From positions 1 through 64,000 of IMG/VR virus record IMGVR_UViG_3300027708_000022: 64,000 nucleotides of DNA; one strand, written 5' to 3'. Made by a program: the position numbers and the translations under genes. Within the stretch, counting starts at the first letter, position 1. Each line of letters starts with the position of its first letter. Of this stretch, positions 986 to 23,854 are shown in pieces. Under the pieces are notes generated by a model, which was not told the DNA's origin, searched no databases, and saw only the letters and a program-made list of their open reading frames with translations. Origin of the DNA: a virus.

Positions 986-2055
986 TAATCAACTCTCTCT
1001 ACATTTACCGCTTCAACGTATAGTTCTTTCATTAGACCTTTAAGTATATCAGGTTTTACATTCAATGTCAACCCATCAATATACTTATTTAAGATAGTCA
1101 TAGTATCTTCCGCTTGATTTACCAATTCTTCATCATCGGTAACTGAATTATCGGTAAAATCTTCAACTATACCTATATCAGCAACACCAGTTTTATATAA
1201 GTTATCCATCACACTATCAAACAGATATGGATTTTGTTTGTTGACTACCACAATCTTAACGTAAGTATCTTTCAAATTATCATAATCAAATGCTTTCCAG
1301 TATGTAAAGTCTTGGACAGTATCATCATAACTTAATCTATGAAACATTTTATATGGATTAGGTATAAATTCTAGTTCTCTTGTGTCTGTATCAAATACAT
1401 GAAATCCTCTTTGGTCATCATAGTCTGCCCATGTAATTTCGTATTGATTGCCTAGATATGTTATATTACCATTAGTTGATTTATGATGAAAGTGACCAGA
1501 TAATACAGTATCAAATCGTTTGAATAGAGAAGAATCTAAACCACCTTGACAAACATTACCACGATCCATTTCAAATCCAGATATTTCAAAATGACCAAAT
1601 ACAATTTGACTCTGTGTATTATTTAAAAATTCTAAACTACTTTGATAGTTACTTGAATTTATCCATGGTACCAATGCAACATTAATACCATCATATACTC
1701 TTTCAACGGGATCAATATACACATTTACATTATTGTAATGCTCAAATAATTCATTCATGGCATTGATTTCATTTGTATTCTTGTAAGTAACATCATGATT
1801 ACCTACAATAACATCCATTTGAATATTGTTCTTTAATAATCTATCAAAGAATCTTTTACGCCAAGAATTCAATGTAACATAATTAATAAATTTTCTACGA
1901 TCAACAACATCACCTAAATGACAAATCTGTGTGATGTTATTTTCTTCTAAGTATGGAAAGAATACATTTTCCCAAAACTTAAAAAAGAATTCATTGAATA
2001 TTGCACTGTCACCTCTTGCACCGGCATGGGTGTCATTTATTAGGGCTAACTTCAT
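985..2055 (-). CDS. 47: gp47 recombination endonuclease subunit (Mre11/SbcD-like metallophosphoesterase)
   Basis: Nuclease subunit partner of gp46. The calcineurin-type metal-binding motifs are visible in order: DTH (residues 8-10), HLGD (46-49), GNHD (85-88), FGHFE (153-157) and SGHFHH (186-191), which together make the two-metal site. At 356 aa it is about the T4 length. A GTG nine bases upstream (2064) is also open, but it lies inside the AAGGTGAG ribosome-binding site that serves ATG 2055, so 2055 is chosen. The 5' end overlaps the nucleotidyltransferase gene by about 23 bases and the 3' end overlaps gp46 by one, so this looks like a compact operon. Confidence 0.93.
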   Translation of the reverse strand: MKLALINDTHAGARGDSAIFNEFFFKFWENVFFPYLEENNITQICHLGDVVDRRKFINYVTLNSWRKRFFDRLLKNNIQMDVIVGNHDVTYKNTNEINAMNELFEHYNNVNVYIDPVERVYDGINVALVPWINSSNYQSSLEFLNNTQSQIVFGHFEISGFEMDRGNVCQGGLDSSLFKRFDTVLSGHFHHKSTNGNITYLGNQYEITWADYDDQRGFHVFDTDTRELEFIPNPYKMFHRLSYDDTVQDFTYWKAFDYDNLKDTYVKIVVVNKQNPYLFDSVMDNLYKTGVADIGIVEDFTDNSVTDDEELVNQAEDTMTILNKYIDGLTLNVKPDILKGLMKELYVEAVNVERVD

Positions 2056-2485
2056 CAAACTCACCTTTTTTCTGATATTCTATTCTATAAGTTCTGTTAC
2101 GTAATTCACTACTGCTAAAGTGATGATCTCTCCGATTAAAATAGATTTCAATACCTCTACCAGCACAGATATCTTTTGCAGTGAATTGTTTTTCTTTATA
2201 TTCATCACCAATAATTCTAACTGAAATTGGGAATGAACGGAATATTTCCTCTAAGTCACTTTCATATGTGTATGGTATAATCTGATCAACATATGTAACT
2301 GCCTTGAGTTGAATATATCTTTCAACTACACTTTGGATAGGTTTATTTTTTTCTTTCCGATCAATTGTTGGATCAGTTTGTAATCCAACAATTAAAAAGT
2401 CACATTGAGTCTTTGCTTCTTCTAACATCAATATGTGACCAGCATGAAGTAAATCAAATGCACTACATGTAAATCCAACTCTCAT
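2033..2485 (-). CDS. Nucleotidyltransferase, cytidylyltransferase-like (TagD/HIGH family)
   Basis: A 150-residue member of the HxGH nucleotidyltransferase superfamily. Seen: N-terminal VGFTCSAFDLLHAGH with the HAGH nucleotide-binding motif near residues 14-17, and a C-terminal SSSELRNR matching the family's S-S-x-x-[IL]-[KR] motif. Family members transfer a nucleotidyl group, for example CTP to glycerol-3-phosphate or ATP to a phosphopantetheine or NMN-like acceptor; the acceptor cannot be told here. Similar genes occur in other T4-like phages of aquatic bacteria, possibly for cofactor or surface-polymer metabolism (inference). A strong AAGGAGA ribosome-binding site lies 7 bases before the ATG. 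It sits between gp55 and gp47. Confidence 0.8.
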   Translation of the reverse strand: MRVGFTCSAFDLLHAGHILMLEEAKTQCDFLIVGLQTDPTIDRKEKNKPIQSVVERYIQLKAVTYVDQIIPYTYESDLEEIFRSFPISVRIIGDEYKEKQFTAKDICAGRGIEIYFNRRDHHFSSSELRNRTYRIEYQKKGEFDEVSPNK

Positions 2486-2495
2486 AATAATCTCC

Positions 2496-3053
2496 TTAAA
2501 TTTCTGGTAGTTCTTTCACATCCAATTCAATAAAGTTTTCAATACCTTTAATCTTTACTTTCTTTTTATTCTTTTTAGTTTCTTCAAATGTATGAATGAA
2601 TTCTGATATGTTATCATACATTTTAAATTGTTGCATATGCCCATTCTCATCTTCAAACATTTCACCTTCATCTAATAAACCAAACTGTTCTGTTGCTTTG
2701 TATTTTACATATAGTTGTTTCTTCTCTTTGGCAATTCTTCGTAGAAATGCAAAGTAAATAATCTGTGTAAAATAGGCAAATGGATTAGATGATTTGGCAG
2801 GATCAAAGTTTCTGAAATACATTATACAATTTTCAATACCATCTGCAATCATTTCATCTCTAAATGAATATGATACGAAGTTTGGTTTTCTAGATAGATG
2901 TTCTGCAATTTTAATAAAACATTCACCGATATAGTTTGGTACTATAGGTTCTGGTTTATCATTTTTTTTGGCTTCAACACACTTTTCGGTATAATCGGTT
3001 AGTGCTTTTAAGAAGTCGGCATTGTTAATGTAATGTGCTTTTTTCTTACTCAT
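2496..3053 (-). CDS. 55: gp55 late-transcription sigma factor
   Basis: Phage sigma factor that directs host RNA polymerase to TATAAATA-type late promoters, usually working with the sliding clamp gp45 and coactivator gp33. Its 185 residues match the T4 gp55 length. Recognised by conserved blocks: an N-terminal HYINNADFLKAL stretch, then RDEMIADGIENCI, a NFD motif and a NPFAYFTQIIYFAFLRRI block, which correspond in order to T4 gp55 segments resembling sigma region 2. The C-terminus is lysine-rich and ends in an acidic hydrophobic tail (FIELDVKELPEI), as expected for the clamp-binding end. Several perfect late promoter motifs occur elsewhere in the window, consistent with this role. Confidence 0.9.
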   Translation of the reverse strand: MSKKKAHYINNADFLKALTDYTEKCVEAKKNDKPEPIVPNYIGECFIKIAEHLSRKPNFVSYSFRDEMIADGIENCIMYFRNFDPAKSSNPFAYFTQIIYFAFLRRIAKEKKQLYVKYKATEQFGLLDEGEMFEDENGHMQQFKMYDNISEFIHTFEETKKNKKKVKIKGIENFIELDVKELPEI

Positions 3054-3074
3054 AATATTTACCTTATATTTCGC

Positions 3075-3103
3075 TTGACAGGTTAGTGATACATTGTTAT
3101 AAT
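3075..3103 (+). promoter_or_regulatory. Perfect consensus sigma-70 promoter, plus strand (antisense)
   Basis: TTGACA at 3075-3080, a 17-base spacer, then TATAAT at 3098-3103: the ideal host housekeeping promoter. It sits between the minus-strand genes for gp55 and the Sm-like protein and points away from gp55, so RNA starting near 3110 would run antisense through 3118-3549 and on towards the homing endonuclease at 3646. Confidence 0.75.
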
Positions 3104-3117
3104 GGTTTTGTCGTTCT

Positions 3118-3549
3118 TTAATGTAATATTCTTTTCTTATTACTTAATACTTCTTTAATGGTTTCAATACTATCTACATACTCTGAGAACTCTTCTTCTG
3201 AAACATCTTCTTCATCACCATCTTCGTTTAATGATTGTTCAATGTGGTCTGACTCTTCAATGATACATTCATTCAAATCAATCACTGCCTTATTATAATA
3301 ATTAACAAGAGATTCTTTAGGTTGAAATACAGTTAATACGTCTTGTGAATAAACTGTAGCCATATTATATTGAATAATCTCTACAGGTAACCAAGGTACC
3401 ATCATCATAACTGATTTACCAGTAATCTGTCTTTTAAATAATACTGTCATAGGATTGTTAAGTGTAACGATACCTTCTTCTTTATCTTCTATCATAGAAG
3501 CAATGATATCTTCACCCGATTGCATCCTTATTATTTTTATGTTATCCAT
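3118..3549 (-). CDS. Conserved phage protein with Sm-like N-terminus and acidic C-terminus
   Basis: A 143-residue protein with no assigned function. The N-terminal 80 residues (IKIIRMQSGEDIIASM..., then a TLNNPMTVLFK strand and a MMMVPWLPV strand) have the spacing of a small Sm/LSm-like beta barrel; similar proteins are common in T4-like phages of aquatic bacteria. Residues about 98-130 are strongly acidic (EESDHIEQSLNEDGDEEDV), followed by a short basic end. It sits just upstream of gp55 in the same direction, so a role in late transcription or RNA binding is possible but only inferred. A consensus promoter at its 3' end points antisense through it. Confidence 0.6.
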   Translation of the reverse strand: MDNIKIIRMQSGEDIIASMIEDKEEGIVTLNNPMTVLFKRQITGKSVMMMVPWLPVEIIQYNMATVYSQDVLTVFQPKESLVNYYNKAVIDLNECIIEESDHIEQSLNEDGDEEDVSEEEFSEYVDSIETIKEVLSNKKRILH

Positions 3550-3579
3550 GTCAAAAATACCCTTTTAGGTAAAAAAAAT

Positions 3580-3587
3580 TATAAATA
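3580..3587 (+). promoter_or_regulatory. T4-type late promoter TATAAATA for the GIY-YIG gene
   Basis: Exact TATAAATA on the plus strand. By T4 rules transcription would start about 6 bases downstream (near 3593), giving a leader of about 50 bases before ATG 3646. It lies in the short gap upstream of the Sm-like gene and serves only the plus-strand endonuclease. Confidence 0.7.
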
Positions 3588-3621
3588 AGTGTAGATCGCC
3601 GAGTTGCAGCTCGCACCTACT

Positions 3622-3644
3622 CTAATACGAAAGGACCGTATCAG
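3622..3644 (+). promoter_or_regulatory. RNA hairpin presenting the ribosome-binding site in its loop
   Basis: Stem CT.ATACG (3622-3629) pairs with CGTAT.AG (3637-3644) with one A-C mismatch. The 7-base loop AAAGGAC contains the Shine-Dalgarno sequence, and the start codon follows immediately at 3646. T4 late homing endonuclease genes are known to use hairpins around their ribosome-binding sites, so translational control is plausible. Confidence 0.45.
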
Positions 3645-3645
3645 T

Positions 3646-4146
3646 ATGACTATTTATTCTTCTAAAAACAGACCTAATCATTTTTATGTATATGCTTATC
3701 TAAGAGATAATAATTTACCTTATTATATAGGTAAAGGTTGCAGAGATAGAGCATGGAACAAAAATCATTCAATAAACATACCTAATGATAACACAAAAAT
3801 AATAATAATGCAAGCTAATTTAACGGAAATTGGAGCATTTGCCATAGAAAGAAGAATGATTCAATGGTATGGAAGAATTGATAATGGTACAGGTATACTT
3901 AGAAATTTAACTGATGGTGGTGATGGAACATCCGGTTATAAACAATCAGAAATACACATACAAAAACGAAAAAAAGCTAGACTTTTAAGTGGATATAATC
4001 ATACACCAGAATCTAAAAATAAATTATCAATTAATAAAACAGGTAAACTTAGACCAGATCATAGTCAAAAAATGAAACAGTATTGGGATAAAAAAACAAA
4101 AGAAGAAAAATTACAACATTCCAAAAAAACTTTTAATAAAAATTAA
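3646..4146 (+). CDS. GIY-YIG homing endonuclease (Seg-like) with NUMOD3-type tail
   Basis: A 166-residue free-standing homing endonuclease, the only plus-strand gene in the first 56 kb. Seen: FYVYAYLR and YYIGKG form the GIY-YIG core near residues 12-30, with downstream basic residues and the catalytic-type glutamate in FAIERRMI. The C-terminus carries repeated NUMOD3-like DNA-binding segments (KQSEIHIQKRKKAR, TPESKNKLSINKTGK). ATG 3646 is preferred over an upstream TTG at 3604 because it follows the AAAGGA site and the protein begins just before the catalytic fold. Its stop overlaps the stop of the convergent uvsW 3' part by two bases, so it abuts that gene exactly. Mobile, probably non-essential. 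Confidence 0.88.
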   Translation: MTIYSSKNRPNHFYVYAYLRDNNLPYYIGKGCRDRAWNKNHSINIPNDNTKIIIMQANLTEIGAFAIERRMIQWYGRIDNGTGILRNLTDGGDGTSGYKQSEIHIQKRKKARLLSGYNHTPESKNKLSINKTGKLRPDHSQKMKQYWDKKTKEEKLQHSKKTFNKN

Positions 4147-4838
4147 ATTTTTAATTCTATATTATAAAACTTATAATTAAATTTTTCATCGTCATACATC
4201 TTTACTCTGCCAACGAAGTGTGTCAAGGTATAATTAACATGTTTGCCTATTCTAAAATCATCAGAGATATCATAAAGAACCGCTTCTTCTTTATTATCAC
4301 CTAATCTAAGTCCACGACCAATTGATTGTAGATTACGAATTTTTGATTTAGATGGTGATGCAAATATTACATTATGTAAATTACGTATATTAATACCAGT
4401 TGAGAATGTACCGTATGAAGCAACAATAATGGCATCTGTTTCACGTTCAGTTATATCTCTAATAGATTCTCTAACTTCGGTATCAGTACCACCATATACA
4501 AAAAATACTTTACGTTTACCTGCTTCTTCTTTTATAATATTATGTAGAACTTTACCATGTTTATCTACAAATTGAAATAGTATTAATGAATTACCTTTCA
4601 ACGACAAGGCAAGATTCTTTATAAATGCATTTCTTGCTGTGTTCAATACTATATATTCAATCTCTTCTTTGTAGTCCCACTTCTTAGATAACTTACAAAC
4701 TTCTTCTGGATATTTAAGTATTAAACATTTAATCTTAAATTTAGATAACTGTTTGTTATCCATTAATTCTTTTGTTGTTGTTGCTTTATATACTGGTCCA
4801 AATAAACCTTCTAATACTAATCTATGAACATTACTCAT
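4143..4838 (-). CDS. uvsW: UvsW helicase, C-terminal part (RecA domain 2) of a split gene
   Basis: Second half of the T4 UvsW superfamily-2 helicase, which remodels recombination and replication intermediates. After the initiating Met the protein reads SNVHRLVLEGLFGPVYK, which is the UvsW sequence that should directly follow the TGTLAN end of the N-terminal part at 5529-6302. Motifs of the second RecA-like domain are present: a strand with SLILFQFVD (motif IV region), ASYGTFSTGINI (motif V) and QSIGRGLR (motif VI arginine finger). The start ATG overlaps the 3' end of the HNH gene by 8 bases, suggesting coupled translation. The two parts total about 487 residues, close to intact T4 UvsW, so they may assemble in trans. 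Confidence 0.9.
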   Translation of the reverse strand: MSNVHRLVLEGLFGPVYKATTTKELMDNKQLSKFKIKCLILKYPEEVCKLSKKWDYKEEIEYIVLNTARNAFIKNLALSLKGNSLILFQFVDKHGKVLHNIIKEEAGKRKVFFVYGGTDTEVRESIRDITERETDAIIVASYGTFSTGINIRNLHNVIFASPSKSKIRNLQSIGRGLRLGDNKEEAVLYDISDDFRIGKHVNYTLTHFVGRVKMYDDEKFNYKFYNIELKI

Positions 4839-5493
4839 TTTTTTCCATAATATTTTTTAACATTTGTTGTCGTCTTTTTTCTATCAATAATAAAGATTTT
4901 TCTTTACCTAAAAGTTCTTCGTATGTTTTGCCTCTTGACCAATCACCAATTTTTTTCTTAGATTCTTCTGTGTGTGGATATCTGCCACTATATGTTAATT
5001 GTTCAAAGGATATTTTTCCATCAATAAAAGAATACAACCTTCTTTTTGTTGTTTGTAATTTTTCCCAAGCTTCTTTTCTACTTTTATACTTTATTCCATT
5101 TATTTCTATTTCTTTAGCATTTGGATTATTTTCTGACATTCTTTTCATTTCTTTATCAGAAAGAGTTTTACCTTTATGGTGTAAACTTGCTGATAAAGAG
5201 TGTGCTTTTCTAGCTATTTCATAACCAATTGAAGTGTAGTACCTATTAGTAGAATCATGGTATCTCATCATGCCAAAAGCATGACCCATTTTAATTTTAT
5301 CTTTTCCTTTTGAGAATTTCCATAATAACCAATGACACACAAAGTGTTCTCTTGCTGTCAATTTTACTTTATTTTTTTTACCATTGTCACCACCTAAAGA
5401 TTTAGGTATTATATGGTGCTCCTCAAAATACTCGGACATTGTCCGAGTATTAGCTTTTTCTATTATAGAGTAATATATTTTTTGATAGTCCAT
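4831..5493 (-). CDS. HNH homing endonuclease inserted in uvsW
   Basis: A 220-residue free-standing HNH endonuclease. Seen: EEHHIIPKSLGGDN (first histidines of the HNH fold, residues about 24-37), KLTAREHFVCHWLL (asparagine/histidine side), and a C-terminal DNA-binding region with KSRKEAWEKLQ (NUMOD1-like) and HTEESKKKIGDWSRG (NUMOD3-like). It occupies nearly all of the 696 bases separating the two uvsW parts. Only about 35 bases precede it and it overlaps the downstream part, so there is no room for a group I intron. No Shine-Dalgarno sequence lies close to ATG 5493, but a late-promoter-like CATAAATA ends 5 bases before it. Expected function: cut intact uvsW alleles to spread itself. Confidence 0.88.
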   Translation of the reverse strand: MDYQKIYYSIIEKANTRTMSEYFEEHHIIPKSLGGDNGKKNKVKLTAREHFVCHWLLWKFSKGKDKIKMGHAFGMMRYHDSTNRYYTSIGYEIARKAHSLSASLHHKGKTLSDKEMKRMSENNPNAKEIEINGIKYKSRKEAWEKLQTTKRRLYSFIDGKISFEQLTYSGRYPHTEESKKKIGDWSRGKTYEELLGKEKSLLLIEKRRQQMLKNIMEKNE

Positions 5494-5531
5494 ATTTCTA
5501 TTTATGCGTTTTAGTTCCTTCTAATAGGTTA
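4836..5531 (-). mobile_element. Intron-less homing insertion in uvsW
   Basis: The block from the TAA that ends the N-terminal uvsW part to the ATG that begins the C-terminal part is 696 bases. Removing it joins ...TGTLAN to SNVHRLVL..., restoring a continuous UvsW reading with no lost residues when compared with the T4 pattern TLDGSKVNELTV. It supplies a stop for the first half, the HNH gene, and a start for the second half. Confidence 0.8.
5499..5506 (-). promoter_or_regulatory. Late-promoter-like CATAAATA directly before the HNH gene
   Basis: CATAAATA on the minus strand ends 5 bases before ATG 5493. With T4 spacing the transcript would begin at the A of the start codon, giving a leaderless message; see the finding on leaderless starts. 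Confidence 0.4.
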
Positions 5532-6302
5532 ATTAGCTAATGTTCCGGTGCAACCTATTCTATATTTTGCATTAACCAATTGTGTCATAATTGTTGCTAG
5601 TGATTTGGCTTTGAATTGATGTGCCTCATCACCTATAACAAAATCAAATTGTTCAAAATATTCTGGTGGTTGTTTGTATATACTCTGCCAAGTCGATATT
5701 GATAGGAATTTATCTGAGTGTTTATCTCGACCAGCATATATTATATGACAGTTTGTTTTTGAGTCATAACCATAAGATTCAAAATCTGTGAACATCTGAT
5801 TACAAAGTGAAGTGGTTGGGACAATAAGTAACCCTTTTTTATAACCAGCATCTTGTATTCGTCTAAGTATCAAATAAATGATTAAAGATTTACCTGATGC
5901 AGTAGGTGAAAGAAGTAGAATTCTTTTATTACGGATTGCATGAACAAAAGAACTAACTTGATAATCACGAGGTTCAAATGGCAAACCAAGTGTCTGTATA
6001 AAGTCGTTGGCTTCTTTTAAGGAGTAATTGTCCGTGACTGTTATCTCAGAATCAATCTCAATTTTGTAATCTCTTTCTTTACAAAACTTTTCAATATAAG
6101 GTACCAAGCCATGGTATATTTCCATGGTTCTTAAATCAAGCAACCTTATCTTACCATCCCAATATCTTGCCTTAAATGCAGGAGTATATTGGTAGCCAGG
6201 AACATAGAAACAAAAATAATCGGAAAGTTCTTGTGCTACATTTCTTTCTGATACTACTCTGATAAAGGCTTCGTTAACCTTTTCTAATCTTAAATCATAC
6301 AC
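5529..6302 (-). CDS. uvsW: UvsW helicase, N-terminal part (RecA domain 1) of a split gene
   Basis: First half of the UvsW recombination helicase, 257 residues. Seen: an N-terminal substrate-recognition domain (about residues 1-105, YTPAFKARYWDGKIRLLD), a Q-motif-like RDYQ, Walker A SPTASGKS (near 131-138), a Walker B DEAH box GDEAHQ (near 225-230) and motif III GCTGT at the end. It terminates two residues after TGTLAN with TAA, exactly at the linker between the two RecA-like domains. Both the ATPase site and the motif V/VI half survive, but on separate polypeptides. The 5' end overlaps uvsY by 8 bases. Confidence 0.9.
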   Translation of the reverse strand: MYDLRLEKVNEAFIRVVSERNVAQELSDYFCFYVPGYQYTPAFKARYWDGKIRLLDLRTMEIYHGLVPYIEKFCKERDYKIEIDSEITVTDNYSLKEANDFIQTLGLPFEPRDYQVSSFVHAIRNKRILLLSPTASGKSLIIYLILRRIQDAGYKKGLLIVPTTSLCNQMFTDFESYGYDSKTNCHIIYAGRDKHSDKFLSISTWQSIYKQPPEYFEQFDFVIGDEAHQFKAKSLATIMTQLVNAKYRIGCTGTLAN

Positions 6303-6729
6303 CCTGTATAAACCTTTCCCATGTTATAAATTCTTTCAATTGAAATGTTCGTGAATGCAATTCTTTAAGAATACTTTGGCATACATCAACAATTTCTTCA
6401 TGTAAAATTTTGTTAGCCAAGTATTTGTTTAAATCTTCATCACTCTCAAAGTATGTAGTGATCTCGGATTTGAGTACAAAAGGAAATGGTTCCCAACCAT
6501 AGTGTTTAAGTTGGTCATCATCTAATTTACCTGTATAGTATTCCCACTTCAGTCGTTTCATTTTGTTATACTTAAACTCAGACTCTCTCACCAATAGTCG
6601 GTGACGAGAAAGTATATTCAAATACTTACTATGTAGTTGTGGTATGTTTGTTAGTTCTTTGCCTGGCTCAGTTCTATCAATAACAGAATCTTTTGCCCAC
6701 ATAGCTAATAGTTCATCAAGTTTGTTCAT
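6295..6729 (-). CDS. uvsY: UvsY recombination mediator
   Basis: Loads the UvsX recombinase onto gp32-coated single-stranded DNA. Its 144 residues match T4 UvsY (137). Recognisable pattern: an N-terminal LDELLAMWAKDSVIDRTEPGKEL typical of aquatic T4-like UvsY, a helical core KYLNILSRHRLLVRESEFKYNKMKRLKWEYYTG corresponding to the T4 KWLNKHS...ARLDYYSG region, and a C-terminal LHSRTFQLKEFITWERF like the T4 IKSRSFALKHIQDMRAF end. A strong AGGAGG ribosome-binding site sits 7 bases before the ATG. It overlaps the downstream uvsW by 8 bases. Confidence 0.88.
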   Translation of the reverse strand: MNKLDELLAMWAKDSVIDRTEPGKELTNIPQLHSKYLNILSRHRLLVRESEFKYNKMKRLKWEYYTGKLDDDQLKHYGWEPFPFVLKSEITTYFESDEDLNKYLANKILHEEIVDVCQSILKELHSRTFQLKEFITWERFIQGV

Positions 6730-6760
6730 TATAAATCCTCCTGTTAGGAGTATACACTAA

Positions 6761-7300
6761 TTATGTAGCTCTGTCAACATCAAAATAGGAATATCTGAAT
6801 GTGGCATCGGCAGTAATGATGGAATCTGGTGTGTCTGAGGCAGAAACCACAAATGTAGATACCGATGTTGGAAACATATCGTAGAAAGTGAATGTGTGTA
6901 ATGGATTGTTTGCTGATGATAAAAGTGTAATCTTAGCATCAGAAAATTGTGGCATTAAATCACCACGAGCATTTGCATTTGAATTCAATAAACTAAGTTT
7001 TTTATATTCGTCAAAACTGGTTACTTTAGTCATAGCACGAATCCAATCGTGAATTTCTAACCAAGACTTTAACTCTTCATCTACCAAAAAGGTAATATTC
7101 AAAATATCATATATGGCCTTTTCACCGGGTGAATATAAATCAACCAATGGTGTATTACGAACAATTTCACCTAATGAAATGCCAGGAATAGTTATAGACT
7201 GACAAAAATATTGTAGATTAGGTACACGACTAAAGTTTAACTGAAACTTATTAGGGTGTAAGTAATTTGGATTGGATGGATTTCTTGTGAATGCACTCAT
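6761..7300 (-). CDS. Tail-tube-fold structural protein, likely gp3-like tail completion protein
   Basis: A 179-residue protein of the T4 tail-tube-like fold. The N-terminus FQLNFSRVPNLQYFCQSITIPGISLGE and the following alternating strands resemble the gp19 tube family. In aquatic T4-like phages the gene between gp23 and uvsY is usually annotated as gp3, the tail completion/sheath-stabilising protein, which fits this position; the gp3 call rests mainly on synteny. The frame stays open to 7348, but ATG 7300 (MSAFTRNPSN) is chosen because a late promoter at 7324-7331 and the gp23 terminator lie inside the longer version. The ribosome-binding site is weak (GTGAGA). Confidence 0.6.
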   Translation of the reverse strand: MSAFTRNPSNPNYLHPNKFQLNFSRVPNLQYFCQSITIPGISLGEIVRNTPLVDLYSPGEKAIYDILNITFLVDEELKSWLEIHDWIRAMTKVTSFDEYKKLSLLNSNANARGDLMPQFSDAKITLLSSANNPLHTFTFYDMFPTSVSTFVVSASDTPDSIITADATFRYSYFDVDRAT

Positions 7301-7323
7301 TATTGTCTCACTAGTTATACTGG

Positions 7324-7331
7324 TATTTATA
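7324..7331 (-). promoter_or_regulatory. T4-type late promoter TATAAATA for the gp3-like gene
   Basis: Exact TATAAATA followed by CC on the minus strand, 23 bases before ATG 7300. It lies just past the gp23 terminator, so transcription is re-started here for the gp3-like, uvsY and uvsW genes. Confidence 0.75.
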
Positions 7332-7334
7332 TGC

Positions 7335-7359
7335 AAAAAAAGAGGCACCGAAGTGCCTC
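7335..7359 (-). terminator. Rho-independent terminator after gp23
   Basis: On the minus strand GAGGCAC-TTCG-GTGCCTC is followed by seven T residues. The 7-bp stem with a UUCG loop lies about 30 bases beyond the gp23 stop codon. Confidence 0.9.
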
Positions 7360-7387
7360 TCTAAAGAACTCTCTACGGAGTTTTTAT

Positions 7388-8746
7388 TTACATGATGTTT
7401 TTAATTGCAAAACCACGGTAGTAGTTGTTTGACTGAGCAGTTAAAGCACCTAGACCAGCATTAGTACCTTCTGCAAATGGATTAGCAACTAGACCGTAAC
7501 GAGTCTTGAAACCAATCTTTGGTTGGAATGTACCGGTATCAACGGCACGAACCATTTGGAGAGGAACGTAAGGGCAATAGAAAAGACCGGCGTCAAATGC
7601 ATTCGAACCTTTGAAACCAACAACTGCAAATTCGTTGGTTGAAGATGTTTGTGCATATGGGTCGATGTAAACTTTAATACGACCGAACATTGTACCAGCA
7701 AATGTATTACCAGTATCATCAACCACTAGGTTAACTTGTGATTGTAAAGCTGAACTATAGTCTAAAAGACCAGCCATCGCAAATGCAGATGCAACATCTG
7801 AAGATACGATAACGATATTACCTTTGCCACGACGAGTTGTCTTAGCAATGGTATTAGCTTCACGTTCTAATTGGAATGCCAAACCTTTGATTTTCTCAAC
7901 CATCCAACGACCGTTTGAGTCGGTGTCTAAGTCGAAAGTACCACGAGTTGTTGTACCAACTTGTGCGCCCAACTTTGCAGTACCGTAAATTGTACGAACA
8001 ACTTCACGGTTGATTTCAGCAAGAATTTCTGTTGACAAGATGTTTGCCAATTCTGTTTCTGCGTCTAGACCATGAACTGCTTTCAAGTCTTGAGCTAATT
8101 CAAGTGAATATTCTGCCTTCAAAGCACGAGTACGAGCAGTAACAGTAACTTTCTCAATTGAGAATGCCATTTCTTGGAATGTGTTACCAGCAGCACCGTC
8201 ACCAAGAGCTTCAGCAGAACCTGTAGTCATTGCAAGACCGGCTTGAGCGTTTGATGTGAATGTTTCTGTTGTGTTAGCAGCAACTGCCAATGCAGTTAAT
8301 TGGTTTGTAATAGCTGCAGCAAGTGCAGTATTAGCGCCAGAAAACTGTGTGTTAGCTTCATTGAAGAATGCTTCTGTACCGCCCTGTGATGCATACTTAG
8401 TACGCATTGCGAAAATCAAACCTGTTGGGCCTGTCATTGGCTGAACGCCGCAAATGTCATAGGCAATTAGATTTGGTAATGAACGACGAACCAAACTGAT
8501 TAAGATTGGGTCAAAACCAGCAACTGGACCTGCTGCAGCTGCACCACCACCGAAACCACCTGTACCAGCAAAGTTTGTTGGTGAACCAGCTTCTGTCAAC
8601 ATACCTGATGACTTAGCCATTTCAATAGCTTGGTTTTCTAAAATAACTGCTGTAACTGCTTTACGATATGGGTCTTTAATGGCCGGCATATCTTTATGGT
8701 CTAGTACCGCAGCCCATTTTGTTTGTAGTTCTTCTGACAAATACAT
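7388..8746 (-). CDS. 23: gp23 major capsid protein
   Basis: The hexameric shell subunit, HK97 fold, 452 residues. Diagnostic T4-like blocks: SLVRRSLPNLIAYDICGVQPMTGPTGLIFAMR (residues about 84-116) and the C-terminal KIGFKTRYGLVANPF. The N-terminal propeptide carries a gp21 protease consensus site, LTE52/A53, matching the (L/I)xE cleavage rule, so mature gp23 should begin at AGSPTNFAG. It has a near-ideal ribosome-binding site AAGGAGAT 8 bases before the ATG, and a strong terminator follows the gene, both fitting very high expression. It lies directly downstream of scaffold gp22. Confidence 0.97.
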   Translation of the reverse strand: MYLSEELQTKWAAVLDHKDMPAIKDPYRKAVTAVILENQAIEMAKSSGMLTEAGSPTNFAGTGGFGGGAAAAGPVAGFDPILISLVRRSLPNLIAYDICGVQPMTGPTGLIFAMRTKYASQGGTEAFFNEANTQFSGANTALAAAITNQLTALAVAANTTETFTSNAQAGLAMTTGSAEALGDGAAGNTFQEMAFSIEKVTVTARTRALKAEYSLELAQDLKAVHGLDAETELANILSTEILAEINREVVRTIYGTAKLGAQVGTTTRGTFDLDTDSNGRWMVEKIKGLAFQLEREANTIAKTTRRGKGNIVIVSSDVASAFAMAGLLDYSSALQSQVNLVVDDTGNTFAGTMFGRIKVYIDPYAQTSSTNEFAVVGFKGSNAFDAGLFYCPYVPLQMVRAVDTGTFQPKIGFKTRYGLVANPFAEGTNAGLGALTAQSNNYYRGFAIKNIM

Positions 8747-14860: not shown

Positions 14861-14868
14861 TATTTATT
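14861..14868 (-). promoter_or_regulatory. Late-promoter-like AATAAATA upstream of gp19
   Basis: AATAAATAG on the minus strand overlapping the gp18 stop; predicted start about 14855, giving a short leader containing the AGGAG site before ATG 14841. Confidence 0.5.
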
Positions 14869-16765
14869 AGAATTTGCCAACGATTTCATCGAAACTGACA
14901 CCAGTTCTAACTGCAACAAAGTTCAATTGAATGAAGTTAACTGAGCGTGCGGGTTTAATGTAGATATCACCAACAAATTCGTTACGGTCAATAATAGCTG
15001 CTGTGTTGTTAGTTGTATCGCAAACAACACGATAGTCAGTAATACCACGGCGACCTTGAACATCACGAAGGAATGGTTCAACTAAGTTAACAAACTGAGC
15101 ACGAGTAAATTGGTCGTTAAATTCAAACATTGTTGAGCGAGCTGCACGAGCAATGGTCTTTTCTAGAACAATAAACAAACGGCGAACATTGATACGGTCA
15201 AATACTGATGGACGGCTCAAGAGAGTTTTGTCGCCAAACAGAATCGTACCTTCACCTTGGAATGTAACAACTGGATTAATACCTTGAACATACAGGTTAT
15301 CACGTTCTGTCTTGGTAGGATTAAATGAAAGTTTGATAACATTCTTAATCACACCACGATTCAAACCACCTGGCGAGTACCATGGGTCACGCTCTAAATC
15401 TGTACGAGCACAAGTACCAGCAACATCAGCATTCAATGGAACCCAACGGTACACATCGTTATACTTGTCGTATTGGTATTTGTAACCAGAATCAAGAACA
15501 GCGTATGAAGAACTTGTTAATCCTGAACGGAAAGAAAGGATTGATGTTGCTTCAGCACCGGCATTGTTTACAACGGAAGCCTTAGTTGGTGACAAGAACA
15601 CCAAGCAATCTTTGCGTGATTCAGCAAGTGAAATCAAACTAGTTGCAATTGTTGAATTGCCTGGACCTGAAATTAACAATGAAACATCAACTGTATCAGC
15701 ATTTGAAAAGAAACCATATGCAGTGGTAATTTCTGTATTACCAATAGTGCCATCAGCACCAGAACTCATTGAAGCAGTAAATGCGGTATTGATTTGTGTG
15801 TATGTTGTACCTGATGCAGCAGTTCCCCAATTCACAGCACCTGGTTGATGGCCTAACCACCACAGATATTTTGATTTTGAGTTGATAACTGTCTTGTAGT
15901 AATTTGATGCACCGTCATTTGTAATTGCATCTGAAGCTTTTGATACGAAAGCATATTTCTCAAGTACTGTATTAGCAGTACCAGTAAATTTGCCATCTTC
16001 ATCAATAACAATAACGTGCATTTCATCTTTGCTACCAGCTTTATCAGTAACATAATCTGATGTTCCTGGAGCAACTCCAAAACTATCAGCATATTGCCAT
16101 TTGCGAAGAATTGGTGTGCCAACTGTAACGGCTGATGATAATGCTGTTGCAACAATAATTGCTGTTGCGTTAACATTGGCTGTACGCAAGTATGTAGAAC
16201 CACCGTCAACAGAAATCAAATCACCAACATATAAGTTGGCAACAGGAGAACCCGTAACATTAATTGTGGTATCGTTTGCTGATGCTGCATTAGCTGTAAC
16301 AGCACTAGTTGAAGTCAAGTTTGATGAGTATGCTGTTGCTGAAGAGCAAATAGAAACTCTTAATGTGTTACCTGTTGCACCAGCATAACGAGCTGCAAAT
16401 GGACCGTATGCTGTGTTTGTTGCTGTTTCACGATTGGCAACATAATCGCTTTCATTCTTAATTAAAACGCCTGTACCGTTTGCGGTAGCATTTAATGTAT
16501 TGGTAGTATTTGCGGCACGAACAATTTTTAAGTTATTTGTGTATGCAAGGAAATTTGCTGCTGAGAACCAGTATTCATAATTTGTAGAGTCAGGCTTACC
16601 AAAACGGTCGACAAGGCGAACCTCATCAGAAATGGTAATGACTTCATTTACTGGACCCCAATTAAAATTTCCAGCAAGGCCACCGATTGAAGTGGCAACT
16701 GAAGGGACAACTGTAGTCAGGTCGATTTCTGATACATTTACCCCAGGTGATAGCTGAAATGCCAT
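14867..16765 (-). CDS. 18: gp18 tail sheath protein
   Basis: Contractile sheath subunit, 632 residues (T4 gp18 is 659). Family signature at the N-terminus, FQLSPGVNVSEIDLTTVVPSV, followed by GLAGNFNWGPVNEV. The conserved C-terminal core is present: WYSPGGLNRG, LYVQGINPVVTFQGEGTILFGDKT and SVFDRINVRRLFIVLEKTI, then ARSVNFIQLNFVAV. The middle third (residues about 110-330) is low-conservation, Thr/Ala/Ser-rich beta sequence as expected for exposed domains. AAGGAGA ribosome-binding site precedes the ATG. It lies between terminase gp17 and tube gp19. Confidence 0.96.
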   Translation of the reverse strand: MAFQLSPGVNVSEIDLTTVVPSVATSIGGLAGNFNWGPVNEVITISDEVRLVDRFGKPDSTNYEYWFSAANFLAYTNNLKIVRAANTTNTLNATANGTGVLIKNESDYVANRETATNTAYGPFAARYAGATGNTLRVSICSSATAYSSNLTSTSAVTANAASANDTTINVTGSPVANLYVGDLISVDGGSTYLRTANVNATAIIVATALSSAVTVGTPILRKWQYADSFGVAPGTSDYVTDKAGSKDEMHVIVIDEDGKFTGTANTVLEKYAFVSKASDAITNDGASNYYKTVINSKSKYLWWLGHQPGAVNWGTAASGTTYTQINTAFTASMSSGADGTIGNTEITTAYGFFSNADTVDVSLLISGPGNSTIATSLISLAESRKDCLVFLSPTKASVVNNAGAEATSILSFRSGLTSSSYAVLDSGYKYQYDKYNDVYRWVPLNADVAGTCARTDLERDPWYSPGGLNRGVIKNVIKLSFNPTKTERDNLYVQGINPVVTFQGEGTILFGDKTLLSRPSVFDRINVRRLFIVLEKTIARAARSTMFEFNDQFTRAQFVNLVEPFLRDVQGRRGITDYRVVCDTTNNTAAIIDRNEFVGDIYIKPARSVNFIQLNFVAVRTGVSFDEIVGKF

Positions 16766-16825: not shown

Positions 16826-18502
16826 TTACAAATTTGAAGTTAGGTAACCAGATGGGACTTCTGGTTTCCACATATCACCATCTTCTACTGAGTAATCTTC
16901 TTCTGTTCCATTAAATGCGAACCCAAAGGGAACAATATCTTCTTCAATTTGTTTAATTCTGGCTTGATACATTGCTTCACGAATATTAACATCATTTAAT
17001 TCTTTGAAGTATGGGTTAGTCGTTAACCAACTAAACAATACTAATGGCATAACCAAATCATCATGGTAACCATCATCTGCGGCATAACTGTCTTTTACCT
17101 GAATGAAAGTTGAAATTTCTGATATAGTATCTGCATCTGTTATTAATAACTTCTTTTCTTCTACTAGTGACTTGAATGTAAAACATCCAATACGCTTAAC
17201 TCTCTTGTCTGTTTGCACACCAAGTTGAGTTTTACCACCACCAAAACCACCTGTAACTGTTTGTCCGGTTTTGGTATCTCTATTTACAAAAATAAGGTTT
17301 TCATACTCTAATTCATTGTGCATGATATGTGCAACCTGCTCACTTGAGTTAACCTCAATCAGCACATATGCCATGTTATAATCTCTTGCCACTTTGTATA
17401 TAACACTTGGATATAACATTGGTGCTATCTTGTTATCTCTAAACTTACCTACTAATTTATATGGCACCGATGACACATCCATAATTATAAATGCAGAATA
17501 GTCACCACCAACACCTTTGGCTGTATCGGCAACAATAACATATGCGTGTGACTTACCTATCAACTCTTCGGTATCTTCATCAAGTTGAGCTTTGACTGGG
17601 AATTCATATAAATCTAAACCGTCTTTAGAATAGACTGTAGGACACGTTGACATATATTCTATAGTATCTGAGTTAATCAACGTCAGCGATGATCCTAAGA
17701 ACTTACAGAGTACTTCCTGATTGTACTTCAGATCACCTAGTTGTCTCTTCTGTTCAAGTGCCCATGCTTCATCTCTGCCAGGTATCTCTGAATAAGGAAT
17801 GAACAATGGCACAAAGTCATTGTTCTTATTAACGGCATCATTCCAGAATTTCCAAAAATGATTATAACCCAACGGTGTTGAGGTAATAAGAATCTTTGTT
17901 GTTTGACCGGCAGAAATAACTGGATATACCGCGGTAAAGAATGCATCAGCCACAGTATTTGGAATAATTGCAGCTTCGTCAATATATAATAAGTTAACTG
18001 ACTTACCACGAATACCAGCTGATGTTGTTGCCGCAGTAAATACAATTGAACCATTTTCTAATTCAATGTCACCTTTGTTCCATGTTTTAATACCCTGTTG
18101 CATCCAATCAGGCAAATGCTCAAACATCAATTGATATCTAGCCATAACTTCACGAGCCGTTGATGCTTTATTTGCAAGAATAGCCGCAGTTTTACTGTCT
18201 TGAAACAATGTATACCAAAGAATATATGCTGCAGCAGATGAAGTTTTACCTTGTTGTCTACCTTCCATGAGAATAACTTTACGGTTGTCATGGATTAATT
18301 TAATCTTTTTCTTTTGACAATCGTAAAGTTTAAACGGTTGAATACCGTAGTCGAGTGTTACGATATAGCAATAGTTGTCAATGAAATATATTGGATCTTC
18401 TGCACACTTAGCTAACTCTAAAACCTGTTCTTCAGAATAAGAAAAATCAATTCCTATTCTTTTTAATGATGAGTTGCCATTATAACCATTATTAATTGTC
18501 AT
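16826..18502 (-). CDS. 17: gp17 terminase large subunit
   Basis: DNA-packaging motor ATPase and headful nuclease, 558 residues (T4 gp17 is 610). ATPase domain: Walker A-type MEGRQQGKTSSAA near residues 79-91 and Walker B LLYIDEAAI near 169-177, with the coupling motif ITSTPLGYNHFWKFW. Nuclease domain: the first catalytic aspartate in AYVIVADTAKGVGGDYSAFI near 323-342, then VLIEVNSSEQVAHIM and the C-terminal DDGYHDDLVMPLVLFSW with paired aspartates. It starts 3 bases after the stop of the Dps-like gene, so it is co-translated with it. Confidence 0.96.
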   Translation of the reverse strand: MTINNGYNGNSSLKRIGIDFSYSEEQVLELAKCAEDPIYFIDNYCYIVTLDYGIQPFKLYDCQKKKIKLIHDNRKVILMEGRQQGKTSSAAAYILWYTLFQDSKTAAILANKASTAREVMARYQLMFEHLPDWMQQGIKTWNKGDIELENGSIVFTAATTSAGIRGKSVNLLYIDEAAIIPNTVADAFFTAVYPVISAGQTTKILITSTPLGYNHFWKFWNDAVNKNNDFVPLFIPYSEIPGRDEAWALEQKRQLGDLKYNQEVLCKFLGSSLTLINSDTIEYMSTCPTVYSKDGLDLYEFPVKAQLDEDTEELIGKSHAYVIVADTAKGVGGDYSAFIIMDVSSVPYKLVGKFRDNKIAPMLYPSVIYKVARDYNMAYVLIEVNSSEQVAHIMHNELEYENLIFVNRDTKTGQTVTGGFGGGKTQLGVQTDKRVKRIGCFTFKSLVEEKKLLITDADTISEISTFIQVKDSYAADDGYHDDLVMPLVLFSWLTTNPYFKELNDVNIREAMYQARIKQIEEDIVPFGFAFNGTEEDYSVEDGDMWKPEVPSGYLTSNL

Positions 18503-18505
18503 TGT

Positions 18506-18943
18506 TTACTTTATAATGCTACGCAGCATCCATGCTTTCTTTTGATGGGCACCTAAAAGTTCTTGCAGAAAATTAGATACAGCTGGTTCACCCGCTTGGT
18601 CTGCAGCAACAATACCTGCACGGAGATGAACGATGAACCTATCGTTGTCAGATTTGATTTGTGCCATCATTGCCAATGCTGATGGAATCACATCAACAGC
18701 TTCTTGAATATCGGATAGTTCTAAAAATCTTTCCATAGAACCTGGAACATACGAATCTAAGTATCGAATATGCTCAGCAATCAAATCTGTTTGTGCAAAC
18801 ACTTCATTATAAAAATTGTTTAAAAAATCATGATATTGTGGAAAGTTTTGACCTTCAATGTTCCAATGAAAGTTGTGACTCTTTAGGTATAATGCAAAGT
18901 TGGTACCCAAAATAACTTTTAATTGTTGAATTAGTTGTTCCAT
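18506..18943 (-). CDS. Dps-like ferritin (DNA-protecting iron-binding protein)
   Basis: 145-residue four-helix-bundle protein of the Dps/mini-ferritin family, which oxidises Fe(II) with peroxide and stores iron, often binding DNA. Seen: LKSHNFHWNIEGQNFPQYHDF then TDLIAEHIRYLDSY. Candidate ferroxidase residues H26, H38, D53 and E57 have the same spacings (12, 15, 4) as H51, H63, D78 and E82 of E. coli Dps, so the centre looks complete. The lysine-rich N-terminal tail that binds DNA in E. coli Dps is absent. It is wedged between small terminase gp16 and large terminase gp17 with 2-3 base gaps, so it is made together with the packaging machine. Confidence 0.85.
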   Translation of the reverse strand: MEQLIQQLKVILGTNFALYLKSHNFHWNIEGQNFPQYHDFLNNFYNEVFAQTDLIAEHIRYLDSYVPGSMERFLELSDIQEAVDVIPSALAMMAQIKSDNDRFIVHLRAGIVAADQAGEPAVSNFLQELLGAHQKKAWMLRSIIK

Positions 18944-18945
18944 TA

Positions 18946-19359
18946 TTATTTGTTCTCTCTAATTTGTTTTAATAATTCTGCGGTTGAACCAACGAATACA
19001 GCATTCTTAACATTGATAGGTGAATTGCTTTGATTGTTTTGCGGCTTCAACTCTTGTTTTCTTTTTTGAATCTCTAAAAGGTCTTTGTTTAATTCAGCCA
19101 AAGTTTTAATAAAATTGGCTGCAACTTCATATGCTCTTGGATGTTCAGACTCTTTAGCTACTCTTAATAGGTCATCAATTGAATCTGTACCCTTATCTAT
19201 AAGATTTTTAATATTGCTTCTGGCTATTGAAGAATCAGCATCAACTTCATCACCTACTTCTTCAACAGGTTTTTGTATTACGGTTGCTGGTAAATACTTT
19301 GGTTCTTCCAAAGGTTCAATATCAAAAATCTCAGATAAATTGTCGTTTACTTTGCTCAT
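18946..19359 (-). CDS. 16: gp16 terminase small subunit
   Basis: Regulatory, DNA-recognising terminase subunit, 137 residues. Matches the T4 gp16 layout: an acidic, disordered N-terminus, a central helical pair with SEHPRAYEVAANFIKTLAELNKDLLEIQKRKQ (T4 has SPRHMEVFATLM...NREILKL), and the diagnostic C-terminal block INVKNAVFVGSTAELLKQI (T4 NIQNATVFMGSPTELMDEI). The start overlaps the gp15 3' end by 4 bases. Confidence 0.9.
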   Translation of the reverse strand: MSKVNDNLSEIFDIEPLEEPKYLPATVIQKPVEEVGDEVDADSSIARSNIKNLIDKGTDSIDDLLRVAKESEHPRAYEVAANFIKTLAELNKDLLEIQKRKQELKPQNNQSNSPINVKNAVFVGSTAELLKQIRENK

Positions 19360-20357
19360 AATGTATTAGGCCAGTCGGTAAATATTTCTTCAAAACCATA
19401 TGCTGTGTCAACATTGGCACCAGCTGGTTTTGGTGTAATAACAATTGCAACAGCTTTTGTTGGTGAAGTATCAACAGTTTTGATTACATAATGTGAATTG
19501 GAGTATAATCCAACAACAGTATCACCAACATTAAGTCTTTGGTTTAAATCACTAACAATTAATTGCCCCGTGGATGTATTACTAAAGTATACAACTTTAC
19601 CTGTTGTTTTCTTATTGATGACACCAATATCTTCTCCGGTCGTAAAGAAACCAGATTTACCGTTTGCATAATCAACAAATACCTTCTGTGCATCCAGATT
19701 AGTGGAGTCGGTATATATGTTGGCGTTTGCTTGTAGAATTAATCCACCGTTATCTTGAATAACTGGTGGCCAAATATATGCCTTTGCTGTAAAATTTAAA
19801 TTCCAAATAATTAACCTAGTGGACATTAAGTCACCTTCATAATCAATTTCAGGTGATACTGAATTCAACATAACAGGCATATCATACACCTGATCCATAT
19901 CTTCAATAAAATCAATTGTAATTGTAAAATCTGGTGTAAAGAATGGTAAAATTTGTTCTAAAATTTGTGTACCATCTTCTGTATTTCTTACATAGATGGA
20001 TAAACTAAAATCAAAGTTATAAGGAATAGGTGCGTATTGCGTTTTCATTTTTGATGAAGCAAACGCAAAGTTTTGTAATGTTGTTTGTTGTTTTCTGCTA
20101 GAATCGTATTGCACGCCAACCAAATCAAAACTCATTCTTGGTACAGTTGTAGCAATTGATTTTGTCAAAGTTGGATCAGTATTGATTCTAACAATATATT
20201 TTTCTTTGGCACCATAATTTAATGGTACCTTTGTAATGTCATGCGCCGTTAAACCATCTTTGGAATACCTTACCAATTGAATATTATTAAACATTGATCC
20301 AAATCCAACCACAATCTTACGAATTGTGCGATTATAGAAATGAGGGTTGTTTAACAT
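19356..20357 (-). CDS. 15: gp15 tail terminator / proximal sheath stabiliser
   Basis: Hexameric protein capping the tail tube and joining tail to head. 333 residues (T4 gp15 is 272). The first 200 residues follow T4 gp15 closely in pattern: HFYNRTIRKIVVGFGSMFNNIQLVR, KVPLNYGAKEKYIVRI, TVPRMSFDLVGVQYDSSRK, FDFSLSIYVRNTEDGTQILEQILPFF and NLNFTAKAYIWPPV. The extra C-terminal 80 residues form a small beta-rich domain not present in T4. Start overlaps the gp14 stop (TAATG). Confidence 0.92.
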   Translation of the reverse strand: MLNNPHFYNRTIRKIVVGFGSMFNNIQLVRYSKDGLTAHDITKVPLNYGAKEKYIVRINTDPTLTKSIATTVPRMSFDLVGVQYDSSRKQQTTLQNFAFASSKMKTQYAPIPYNFDFSLSIYVRNTEDGTQILEQILPFFTPDFTITIDFIEDMDQVYDMPVMLNSVSPEIDYEGDLMSTRLIIWNLNFTAKAYIWPPVIQDNGGLILQANANIYTDSTNLDAQKVFVDYANGKSGFFTTGEDIGVINKKTTGKVVYFSNTSTGQLIVSDLNQRLNVGDTVVGLYSNSHYVIKTVDTSPTKAVAIVITPKPAGANVDTAYGFEEIFTDWPNTL

Positions 20358-22225: not shown

Positions 22226-23854
22226 TTATCCTAATGCGATTGCGAGTGCCAAAATGTCCGGAATGGTTGCTGCTGTATTAGCTTTAATAAGCGCTGCATT
22301 AGCTGTATCAAATGCAGCTATAATCGAATTATTTTGTGTAACAATTGTATTGCTAACCACATTTGCTGCATCAAAAGCTGAGTTGGCATATGAACCAGCT
22401 GAATTAGCTCCAGCAAATGCTGCTATTATGCTGTTGTTTTGTGTTGTATCGGTTGCTGTAGCAGCATTAGCAGCTGTAAAAGCACCATTAGCATATACAC
22501 CAGCTGAGGTTGCTTTGTTATCTGCGGTATTAGCAGCAATAAATGCACCGTTAGCATAAATTGCTGAGGAATTGGCCACATGACTTGGTGTGTTAGCAGA
22601 TGTAAATGCTGCGGTAATGCTGTTGTTCTGAGTTGCATTTATAGCATTCGAAATGTTAGCAGCTTCAAATGCTGCATCTGTTCTTATATTTATCGTGTTT
22701 GCAAAATCATAAGATGATTCAACTTTAATATTAACACTATTTGCAAAATCATAAGAACTTTGTGCTAGTATACTTGCCGAATTAGCCTTATTGTAAGATG
22801 AATTTGCAGTTGCTCTAGCAAATTCATCAGCACCACCTGCACCACCAGATGGAGTGGATGCAATCCATTTCTTTAAGGTTTCATTGTATGTTAAAACTTG
22901 GCCGTTAGTTGCACCAACAAGACTTATATGATCTGTATCACCTAAATCATTTAGCCAATATGAACCAGAACCACCTCCACCGGCAAAATTCATGGAAGTT
23001 AAATACTTGTCTATCTTGTCGTGTATTTTTCTTATATCTGGTGTGACACCATCTTTTCCATTCAGACCATCTTTACCATTTACACCATCTTTTCCATTTA
23101 GACCGTCTTTGCCATCTACACCATCTTTACCATTAAGTCCGATTTTACCTGCATCGCCTTTATCACCCTTAGGTCCGATTTGACCTTGAGGGCCAATATC
23201 TCCTTTGTCACCTTTAGGGCCTTGTAATCCATTCTGACCAGAATCACCTTTATCGCCTTGATTACCTTTGTTTCCTTTATCACCTTGAATACCTTGTATT
23301 CCCTGAGGACCTATTTCTCCTTGGTCACCCTTTTCACCTTTAGGACCAACTGCACCAACACTACCCGTTTCACCTTTAGGTCCACGATCACCTTTTAAAC
23401 CAGTAAGTCCTTGTTCACCTTTTGGTCCAGAGAAGCCTTGAATGCCAATGTCACCCTTGTCACCTTTACTGCCTTTAGGTCCTTCAGCACCTTGAGGTCC
23501 TTGAAGTCCTTGTTCACCAGTATCACCCTTTTCACCTTGTGGTCCTGGTGGTCCTTCGACCAACATACTACTAGTTTCTTCTACTATGTCATCAATTTCA
23601 TCTTCTTCATTTATTATTTCTTCAGTAGAAGGTTCAACAATCCTTTCTTCAACAATAGTATTGAAGTCTTTAATTTTAAAGACGATAGATTTTCTTTCTT
23701 TTTCTTCTTTTTCTAATTGTTCTTGTAGTTTTATTCTTTGTTGTAATTTGATTCCTACATCAGCTTTTTCTTTAGCCGATAACCAAGCCTTCTCTGTGAT
23801 TGAGAGTTTCTTTGCTTTTTCTTCTGGAGTTAAATATTGGCTAAATTTTTTCAC
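22226..23854 (-). CDS. Collagen-like tail or neck fibre with ANSA-repeat C-terminus
   Basis: 542-residue fibrous protein. Residues about 1-95 are charged and helical. Residues about 100-275 are an almost uninterrupted Gly-X-Y collagen-like tract (GPPGPQGEKGDTGEQG at its start, ending in NGKDGVNGKDG units), expected to form a trimeric triple helix. A small domain with YWLNDLGDTDHISLVGATNGQVLTYN follows, and then residues about 340-540 carry repeats of the SSYDFANS / YANGAFIAANTA type, probably a coiled or beta fibre. Start is GTG 23854 with no clear ribosome-binding site. Located beside gp13; whisker, neck or tail fibre is inferred. Confidence 0.8.
   Translation of the reverse strand: MKKFSQYLTPEEKAKKLSITEKAWLSAKEKADVGIKLQQRIKLQEQLEKEEKERKSIVFKIKDFNTIVEERIVEPSTEEIINEEDEIDDIVEETSSMLVEGPPGPQGEKGDTGEQGLQGPQGAEGPKGSKGDKGDIGIQGFSGPKGEQGLTGLKGDRGPKGETGSVGAVGPKGEKGDQGEIGPQGIQGIQGDKGNKGNQGDKGDSGQNGLQGPKGDKGDIGPQGQIGPKGDKGDAGKIGLNGKDGVDGKDGLNGKDGVNGKDGLNGKDGVTPDIRKIHDKIDKYLTSMNFAGGGGSGSYWLNDLGDTDHISLVGATNGQVLTYNETLKKWIASTPSGGAGGADEFARATANSSYNKANSASILAQSSYDFANSVNIKVESSYDFANTINIRTDAAFEAANISNAINATQNNSITAAFTSANTPSHVANSSAIYANGAFIAANTADNKATSAGVYANGAFTAANAATATDTTQNNSIIAAFAGANSAGSYANSAFDAANVVSNTIVTQNNSIIAAFDTANAALIKANTAATIPDILALAIALG

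Follow-up and report, generated by a model that had tools for sequence, protein, structure and literature searches.

Why should a T4-like phage carry a ferritin gene between the genes for the two subunits of its packaging terminase? The question is raised by dps, a single-copy gene of a 162,042-base virus record, whose first 64,000 bases (1-64000) form the window analyzed here. The gene lies on the minus strand at 18506..18943, opens with an ATG and encodes a tail-less Dps-type mini-ferritin of 145 residues.

The dps locus

The original prediction placed dps between gp16 and gp17 with gaps of two to three bases, and profile matches on both sides bear this arrangement out. Directly upstream, across a gap of two bases, lies the gene for TerS, the gp16-like terminase small subunit (18946..19359, minus strand; PF11053, 3.7e-9; phrog_445, 1e-36), and directly downstream, across a gap of three bases, lies that for TerL, the gp17-like large subunit (16826..18502, minus strand; PF03237, PF17289 and phrog_5989/phrog_2). 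The same strand carries a gp15-like tail sheath stabilizer, the first of the neighboring operon genes (19356..20357; PF16724, 2.8e-70; phrog_227), and a gp18-like tail sheath gene downstream of terL (14867..16765; PF04984/PF17482 and phrog_23). A putative ribosome-binding site for dps, GAGAGAA (18953..18959, minus strand), can be read from the sequence; it overlaps the 3' end of terS and ends nine bases 5' of the dps ATG. The late-promoter motif TATAAATA has seven occurrences in the window, where chance alone would give 8.2, and none of the seven is near the dps operon. RNA structure at the dps-terL junction gave no signal (z 0.72), no tRNA genes were found within the 64-kb window, and the GC content is 36-37%.

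Several other features of the record deserve mention. Its two ends (window 475-4930 and L315:14119-18042, the latter corresponding to record ~158120-162042) hold diverged, same-orientation copies of one gene block encoding an SbcD-like nuclease, a gp55-like protein and a UvsW-like helicase, with 68-80% DNA identity and 73-77% protein identity; these copies may reflect a real duplication or an assembly join of two related phages. By eye, a UvsW-like helicase at window 4143-6302 is apparently split into reading frames at 5529-6302 and 4143-4838, with an HNH-looking reading frame between them (4831-5493), which appears to be the pattern that a homing endonuclease would leave. A collagen-like protein with G-X-Y repeats is encoded upstream of the neck genes (window 22226-23854), and the phage also encodes a DNA/RNA non-specific endonuclease (L313:1669-2505; PF01223, 3e-41).

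A predicted Dps fold with an intact ferroxidase site

Profile and structure searches agree on the identity of the dps product. It matches Pfam Ferritin with an E-value of 9.2e-22 and PHROG 3636 over its full length (residues 2-144, 5.1e-33), and a sequence search of the PDB returned 48 distinct sequences at E <=0.001, headed by Pseudomonas aeruginosa PA0962 (2.1e-20). The AlphaFold2 monomer, built from 53 aligned rows, has a mean pLDDT of 94.8, and its predicted helices (2-28, 34-61, 70-76, 89-116 and 120-144) form a ferritin four-helix bundle in which 70-76 is the short BC-loop helix. The structural matches, obtained with Foldseek and VIA-align, are all Dps proteins, namely PA0962, Staphylococcus aureus Dps, Dlp-1/2, TpF1 and MrgA, with Z of 22-23 (about 23 for PA0962, TpF1 and MrgA) and rmsd of 1.1-1.4. 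Scores against the NCBIfam Dps equivalogs NF041388, NF052461 and PRK09448 are far under the curated cut-offs (48/170, 40.8/300 and 38.2/114 bits, respectively).

The claim of a complete ferroxidase spacing also held. The four ligands His26, His38, Asp53 and Glu57, encoded on the minus strand at 18866..18868, 18830..18832, 18785..18787 and 18773..18775, are spaced 12/15/4, identical to the spacing of the E. coli Dps site, H51/H63/D78/E82. Alignment to the solved PA0962 protein, where the residues are H37/H49/D64/E68, gives the same figures. These four residues, together with W27, are unchanged in 225/225 distinct viral relatives, a count that is partly built in, because the Dps scans gathered their loci with peptide patterns that in some cases include ferroxidase residues. 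Relatives recruited through TerL were therefore counted as well, and in this set, which is free of that bias, the ferroxidase residues are kept in all 86 distinct Dps sequences from 99 loci. The loss of the site in close relatives, named at the outset as an observation that would speak against a ferritin, was thus not seen in either set, and the ferroxidase residues are the most conserved positions of the Dps set. Judging from sequence and predicted fold, we are nearly certain that 18506-18943 encodes a functional Dps-fold ferroxidase, and we infer that twelve of its subunits would build a cage.

The protein has next to nothing outside this fold. The window Dps begins one residue ahead of helix A and ends with the last helix, and 157 of 164 distinct Dps sequences have seven residues before the position of window L8 and one after that of I144. 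The window protein has a pI of 5.4 and a net charge of -6; all 164 sequences are net negative (-10 to -2), with a median charge of -7 and a median pI of 5.2. The acidic character and the absence of the tails through which E. coli Dps binds DNA argue for a ferroxidase-type Dps and against one that binds DNA as the E. coli protein does.

Purifying selection on dps

dps is under strong and long-standing purifying selection, with a median dN/dS of 0.16 in 1038 random pairs (0.1<pS<0.6). The window Dps is 88% identical to that of locus L009, at a pS of 0.70 and a dN/dS of 0.035. For the same pair the identities are 44% for TerL, 51% for TerS, 60% for gp15 and 68% for gp18, which places Dps among the most conserved proteins of the region. 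Recent spread as the source of the high Dps identity was considered for this pair and rejected, since its synonymous sites are near saturation.

Gene order in uncultured T4-like phages

Searching IMG/VR with the window Dps yielded 228 relatives. Among the best 80 of these 228, dps directly precedes terL in 76, TerL is outside the available sequence in three, and in the remaining locus, L020, an insert separates dps from the start of the recognized TerL; TerS immediately precedes dps in 77 and is cut off in the other three. By eye, TerL of L020 is apparently interrupted by intein-like and endonuclease-like reading frames (6430-8000), and GIY-YIG homing-endonuclease-like reading frames lie between dps and TerL in four further loci (L194:3980-4600, L296:3000-3450, L300:3400-4020 and L238:4430-5040). 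A second Dps type, 44% identical to the first and searched with a query from L110, has 197 relatives. The best 80 of these include 74 in which dps is directly before TerL, three with TerL outside the available sequence and three with TerL further off; TerS is adjacent in 65, unrecognized despite at least 600 bases of sequence in eight, non-adjacent in five and cut off in two. Approached from the terminase side, dps is present at 33 of the 80 loci whose TerL is close to that of the window, absent from 39 with at least 600 bases available upstream, and indeterminate at eight; the corresponding figures for 80 loci near the other TerL type are 70, three and seven.

The pooled scans comprise 404 of 420 loci, the 16 left out being phage records, genome stretches, L081 and L161, and dps is found in 346 of the 404. 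The loci include contigs from overlapping samples, and many of them repeat a single contig; counts were therefore made by distinct dps DNA, which gives 253 genes. The exact order TerS-dps-TerL is seen for 171 of these, so that the survey of related terminase operons suggested by the original prediction extends the arrangement far beyond the window. The remaining genes comprise six with an insert before TerL, 12 before TerL with TerS unrecognized or outside the sequence, four after TerS at a contig end, 24 near homologs of orf11453, orf13402 or orf15175, 19 in a replication operon, two between a tube-like gene and UvsW, 10 without a recognized neighbor and five fragments. As read from these contigs, a large group of uncultured T4-like phages carries dps between both packaging genes; that this is a freshwater group is our guess. 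A scan of genome contigs for cellular relatives yielded one, in a Saprospiraceae MAG (31% identity), such single-protein scans reaching close relatives only.

The gp16-gp17 junction as a cargo slot

The position of dps was taken by the original prediction as a sign of co-production with the packaging motor, and hence as a possible pointer to a packaging role. Other occupants of the same junction speak against the latter. In more distant relatives by TerL, the two terminase genes may follow one another directly, commonly with a 23-base gap, and in four relatives without a slot dps (L145, L149, L154 and L157) the space is filled by an SNase-family reading frame (L145:1185-1610; Pfam, 4.5e-10). 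In named phages the slot holds cargo other than Dps: phytanoyl-CoA dioxygenase and tryptophan halogenase in pelagiphage HTVC008M, an F5/8 type C protein in Melnitz, one small reading frame in Mosig and six hypothetical genes in Syn1.

The dps gene itself is also exchanged. Dps-A adjoins TerL types that are only ~44% identical to each other, and the alleles dpsA and dpsB, themselves ~44% identical, are intermixed on the TerL tree and swap between TerL lineages. This tree, a quick one of 76 of the 262 TerL rows for which the program issued a long-branch warning, needs 14 changes of slot content, its starred branches forcing at least four allele-B changes, and it includes a locus with an empty slot, L123, within a dps-bearing clade. 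Two long records without a slot dps carry the gene elsewhere (G003, 165 kb, at 129697-130119; G004, 143 kb, at 117061-117480), and no dps was found elsewhere in five shorter records (6.6-78 kb) without a slot dps. The order in G004 is gp44, gp62, regA, dps, an Hsp20-like reading frame and gp43, and in another T4-like lineage (L319:5559-5999 and L320-L331) dps likewise follows regA and precedes gp43 in the replication operon. The ferroxidase site is intact at these alternative addresses. The presence of dps either in the slot or elsewhere indicates a function wanted by many of these phages, for which the terminase slot is the commonest address and not the only one.

Tight coupling to the packaging motor was accordingly rejected as the main reading, in view of the varied TerL partners, the mixing of alleles and the location of dps elsewhere in sister phages. 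dps would lie between gp16 and gp17 because cargo genes are inserted at this junction and gain co-expression with the terminase there, and not because of any work on the motor, although so strict a TerS-dps-TerL order might point to something beyond a cargo slot. More generally, these comparisons reveal that T4-like phages exchange cargo genes at the gp16-gp17 junction.

Possible roles of the phage Dps

Protection from iron and peroxide, which the original prediction also proposed, remains the best reading: we think it probable, from the sequence and the model, that the main benefit of the phage Dps is as a cytoplasmic sink for Fe(II) and H2O2. Proteins of this family form cages that oxidize Fe(II) at an inter-subunit site and store Fe(III), and PA0962, a tail-less 12-mer, is described as oxidizing Fe(II) by H2O2 and not by O2, its loss leaving cells sensitive to H2O2 (PMC10002758). 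In the phage protein, the di-iron sites would oxidize Fe(II), with H2O2 as the preferred oxidant, and Fe(III) would be stored within the cage, so that the sequestered iron and peroxide would not give rise to hydroxyl radicals in the infected cell. Dps would be made along with the packaging genes, presumably late by the T4 convention, and up to lysis would shield the pool of unpackaged genomes, the iron enzymes and the host as it dies. That infection can bring oxidative stress is suggested by the reported early induction of host dps, catalase and a peroxiredoxin gene in Yersinia ruckeri infected with YerA41 (PMC7354516). The phage record itself carries RNR genes, as read from its sequence, along with 2OG-Fe(II) oxygenases (L312:17105-17722 and L313:17361-18140), an Asp/Asn hydroxylase-like protein (L314:14789-15295) and a peptide deformylase (L315:12546-13127); the RNR, the 2OG-Fe(II) oxygenases and the deformylase depend on controlled iron.

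These Fe-dependent enzymes would equally suit a cage that hoards host iron, either to supply the Fe(II) enzymes of the phage or for release at lysis, and the same protein chemistry fits. We nevertheless hold such a store to be unlikely, as Dps cages carry far less iron than 24-mer ferritins and no gene for iron uptake or release was recognized among the scanned proteins, which represent part of the genome.

It is more doubtful still that Dps cages or subunits are built into the prohead and travel with the DNA, protecting it or reaching the next host. The 171 of 253 genes located among the packaging genes would be consistent with this, as would the dps of another lineage that adjoins homologs of orf15175 and orf13402; orf15175 (L313:15175-17313) and three other reading frames of the phage have N-termini that resemble the T4 capsid-targeting peptide by a rough regular expression. 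In addition, going by names and lengths, BFVD contains Dps folds within long proteins of uncultured phages labeled "Prohead protease" (A0A6J7WPK9, A0A6J7XDU5, A0A6J7WIS1 and others, 333-763 aa), which, if real, would place Dps in the prohead. The packaging of Dps with the genome, raised in the original prediction, found no positive sequence evidence in the Dps proteins, which are tail-less and acidic. The L/I-X-E cut that follows a capsid-targeting peptide has been described (PMC9026906), and a rough expression for an N-terminus of the T4 internal-head-protein type matched none of the 164 distinct Dps sequences. As helix A starts at residue 2, there is no room for a cleavable leader; a 9-nm cage would also have to get in before head closure, and the dps of sister phages belongs to the replication operon. 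A broader proposal, to which we give very little weight, is that iron and peroxide control would be a standard, near-core late step in a very large T4-like group, kept at the packaging junction by two-allele cassette exchange, with the cage, in part of the group, taken into the head and carried into the next host, where it would serve at once as an iron and peroxide sink.

A DNA-cutting role is very unlikely as well. In this case the 12-mer would nick DNA with divalent metals, breaking host DNA or trimming replicating DNA, as PA0962, the best solved match by both sequence and Foldseek, is reported to cleave plasmid DNA in vitro. The missing tails are thus insufficient by themselves to dismiss a role on DNA, and the SNase-family nuclease in the same slot of four TerL relatives would fit. 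On the other hand, the PA0962 nuclease offers no assigned catalytic residues to match; the strongest conservation in Dps is at the ferroxidase ligands, and phage DNA still awaiting packaging would be at risk from a nuclease made beside the motor. Finally, an E. coli-type Dps that binds DNA and condenses the nucleoid, as the PHROG 3636 label "DNA binding protein" and the very name Dps would suggest, is extremely improbable for a protein with no tails, a negative charge throughout the set and scores so far below the three equivalog cut-offs.

Relation to known systems

A comparison of the phage Dps with PA0962 (PDB 8ff9) shows close agreement: TMq is 0.93, rmsd ~1.2 and identity 32%, and both proteins are tail-less with the same H/H/D/E and Trp residues. 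The Tyr network of the phage protein is thinner, as Y27 of PA0962 corresponds to F16 (F in 158/164) while Y30 corresponds to Y19. Unlike PA0962, the protein of 145 aa is phage-encoded and located in a terminase operon. Dlp-1/Dlp-2, MrgA, TpF1, HP-NAP and Listeria Dps are likewise similar in fold (Z 22-23) and length, but are cellular proteins only 20-31% identical to it. Among INPHARED records, 28 of 50,697 match the window Dps, all at <60% identity; the best is Synechococcus phage S-SRM01 (31%, full-length), and in the two contexts viewed, S-SRM01 and S-EIVl, the dps homolog is not in the terminase operon.

Ferritin-like genes have been reported in other phages. In the study of Kavagutti (2019), >10% of freshwater phage genomes carried oxidative-stress genes, ferritin included, and a phage-mediated defense against ROS was proposed (PMC6802176); Dps has been published in the gut "Gratiaviridae" (PMC8008677) and in Lactobacillus phages (PMC6669764). 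All three cases resemble the window phage, in that a lytic phage carries an antioxidant gene of the ferritin type for which the same purpose is proposed. Both gene and probable purpose are thus of a known kind. The portions of these three reports available to us mention no fixed terminase-operon address and do not name the T4-like group treated here, and in the open-access literature searched we found no description of the TerS-dps-TerL order, its allele exchange or the alternative addresses. Taken together, our analysis turns scattered sightings of phage ferritins into a defined, widely conserved gene that is under strong selection and has a fixed address, and its presence or absence in the same slot provides natural controls by which the idea of a phage ROS defense becomes testable.
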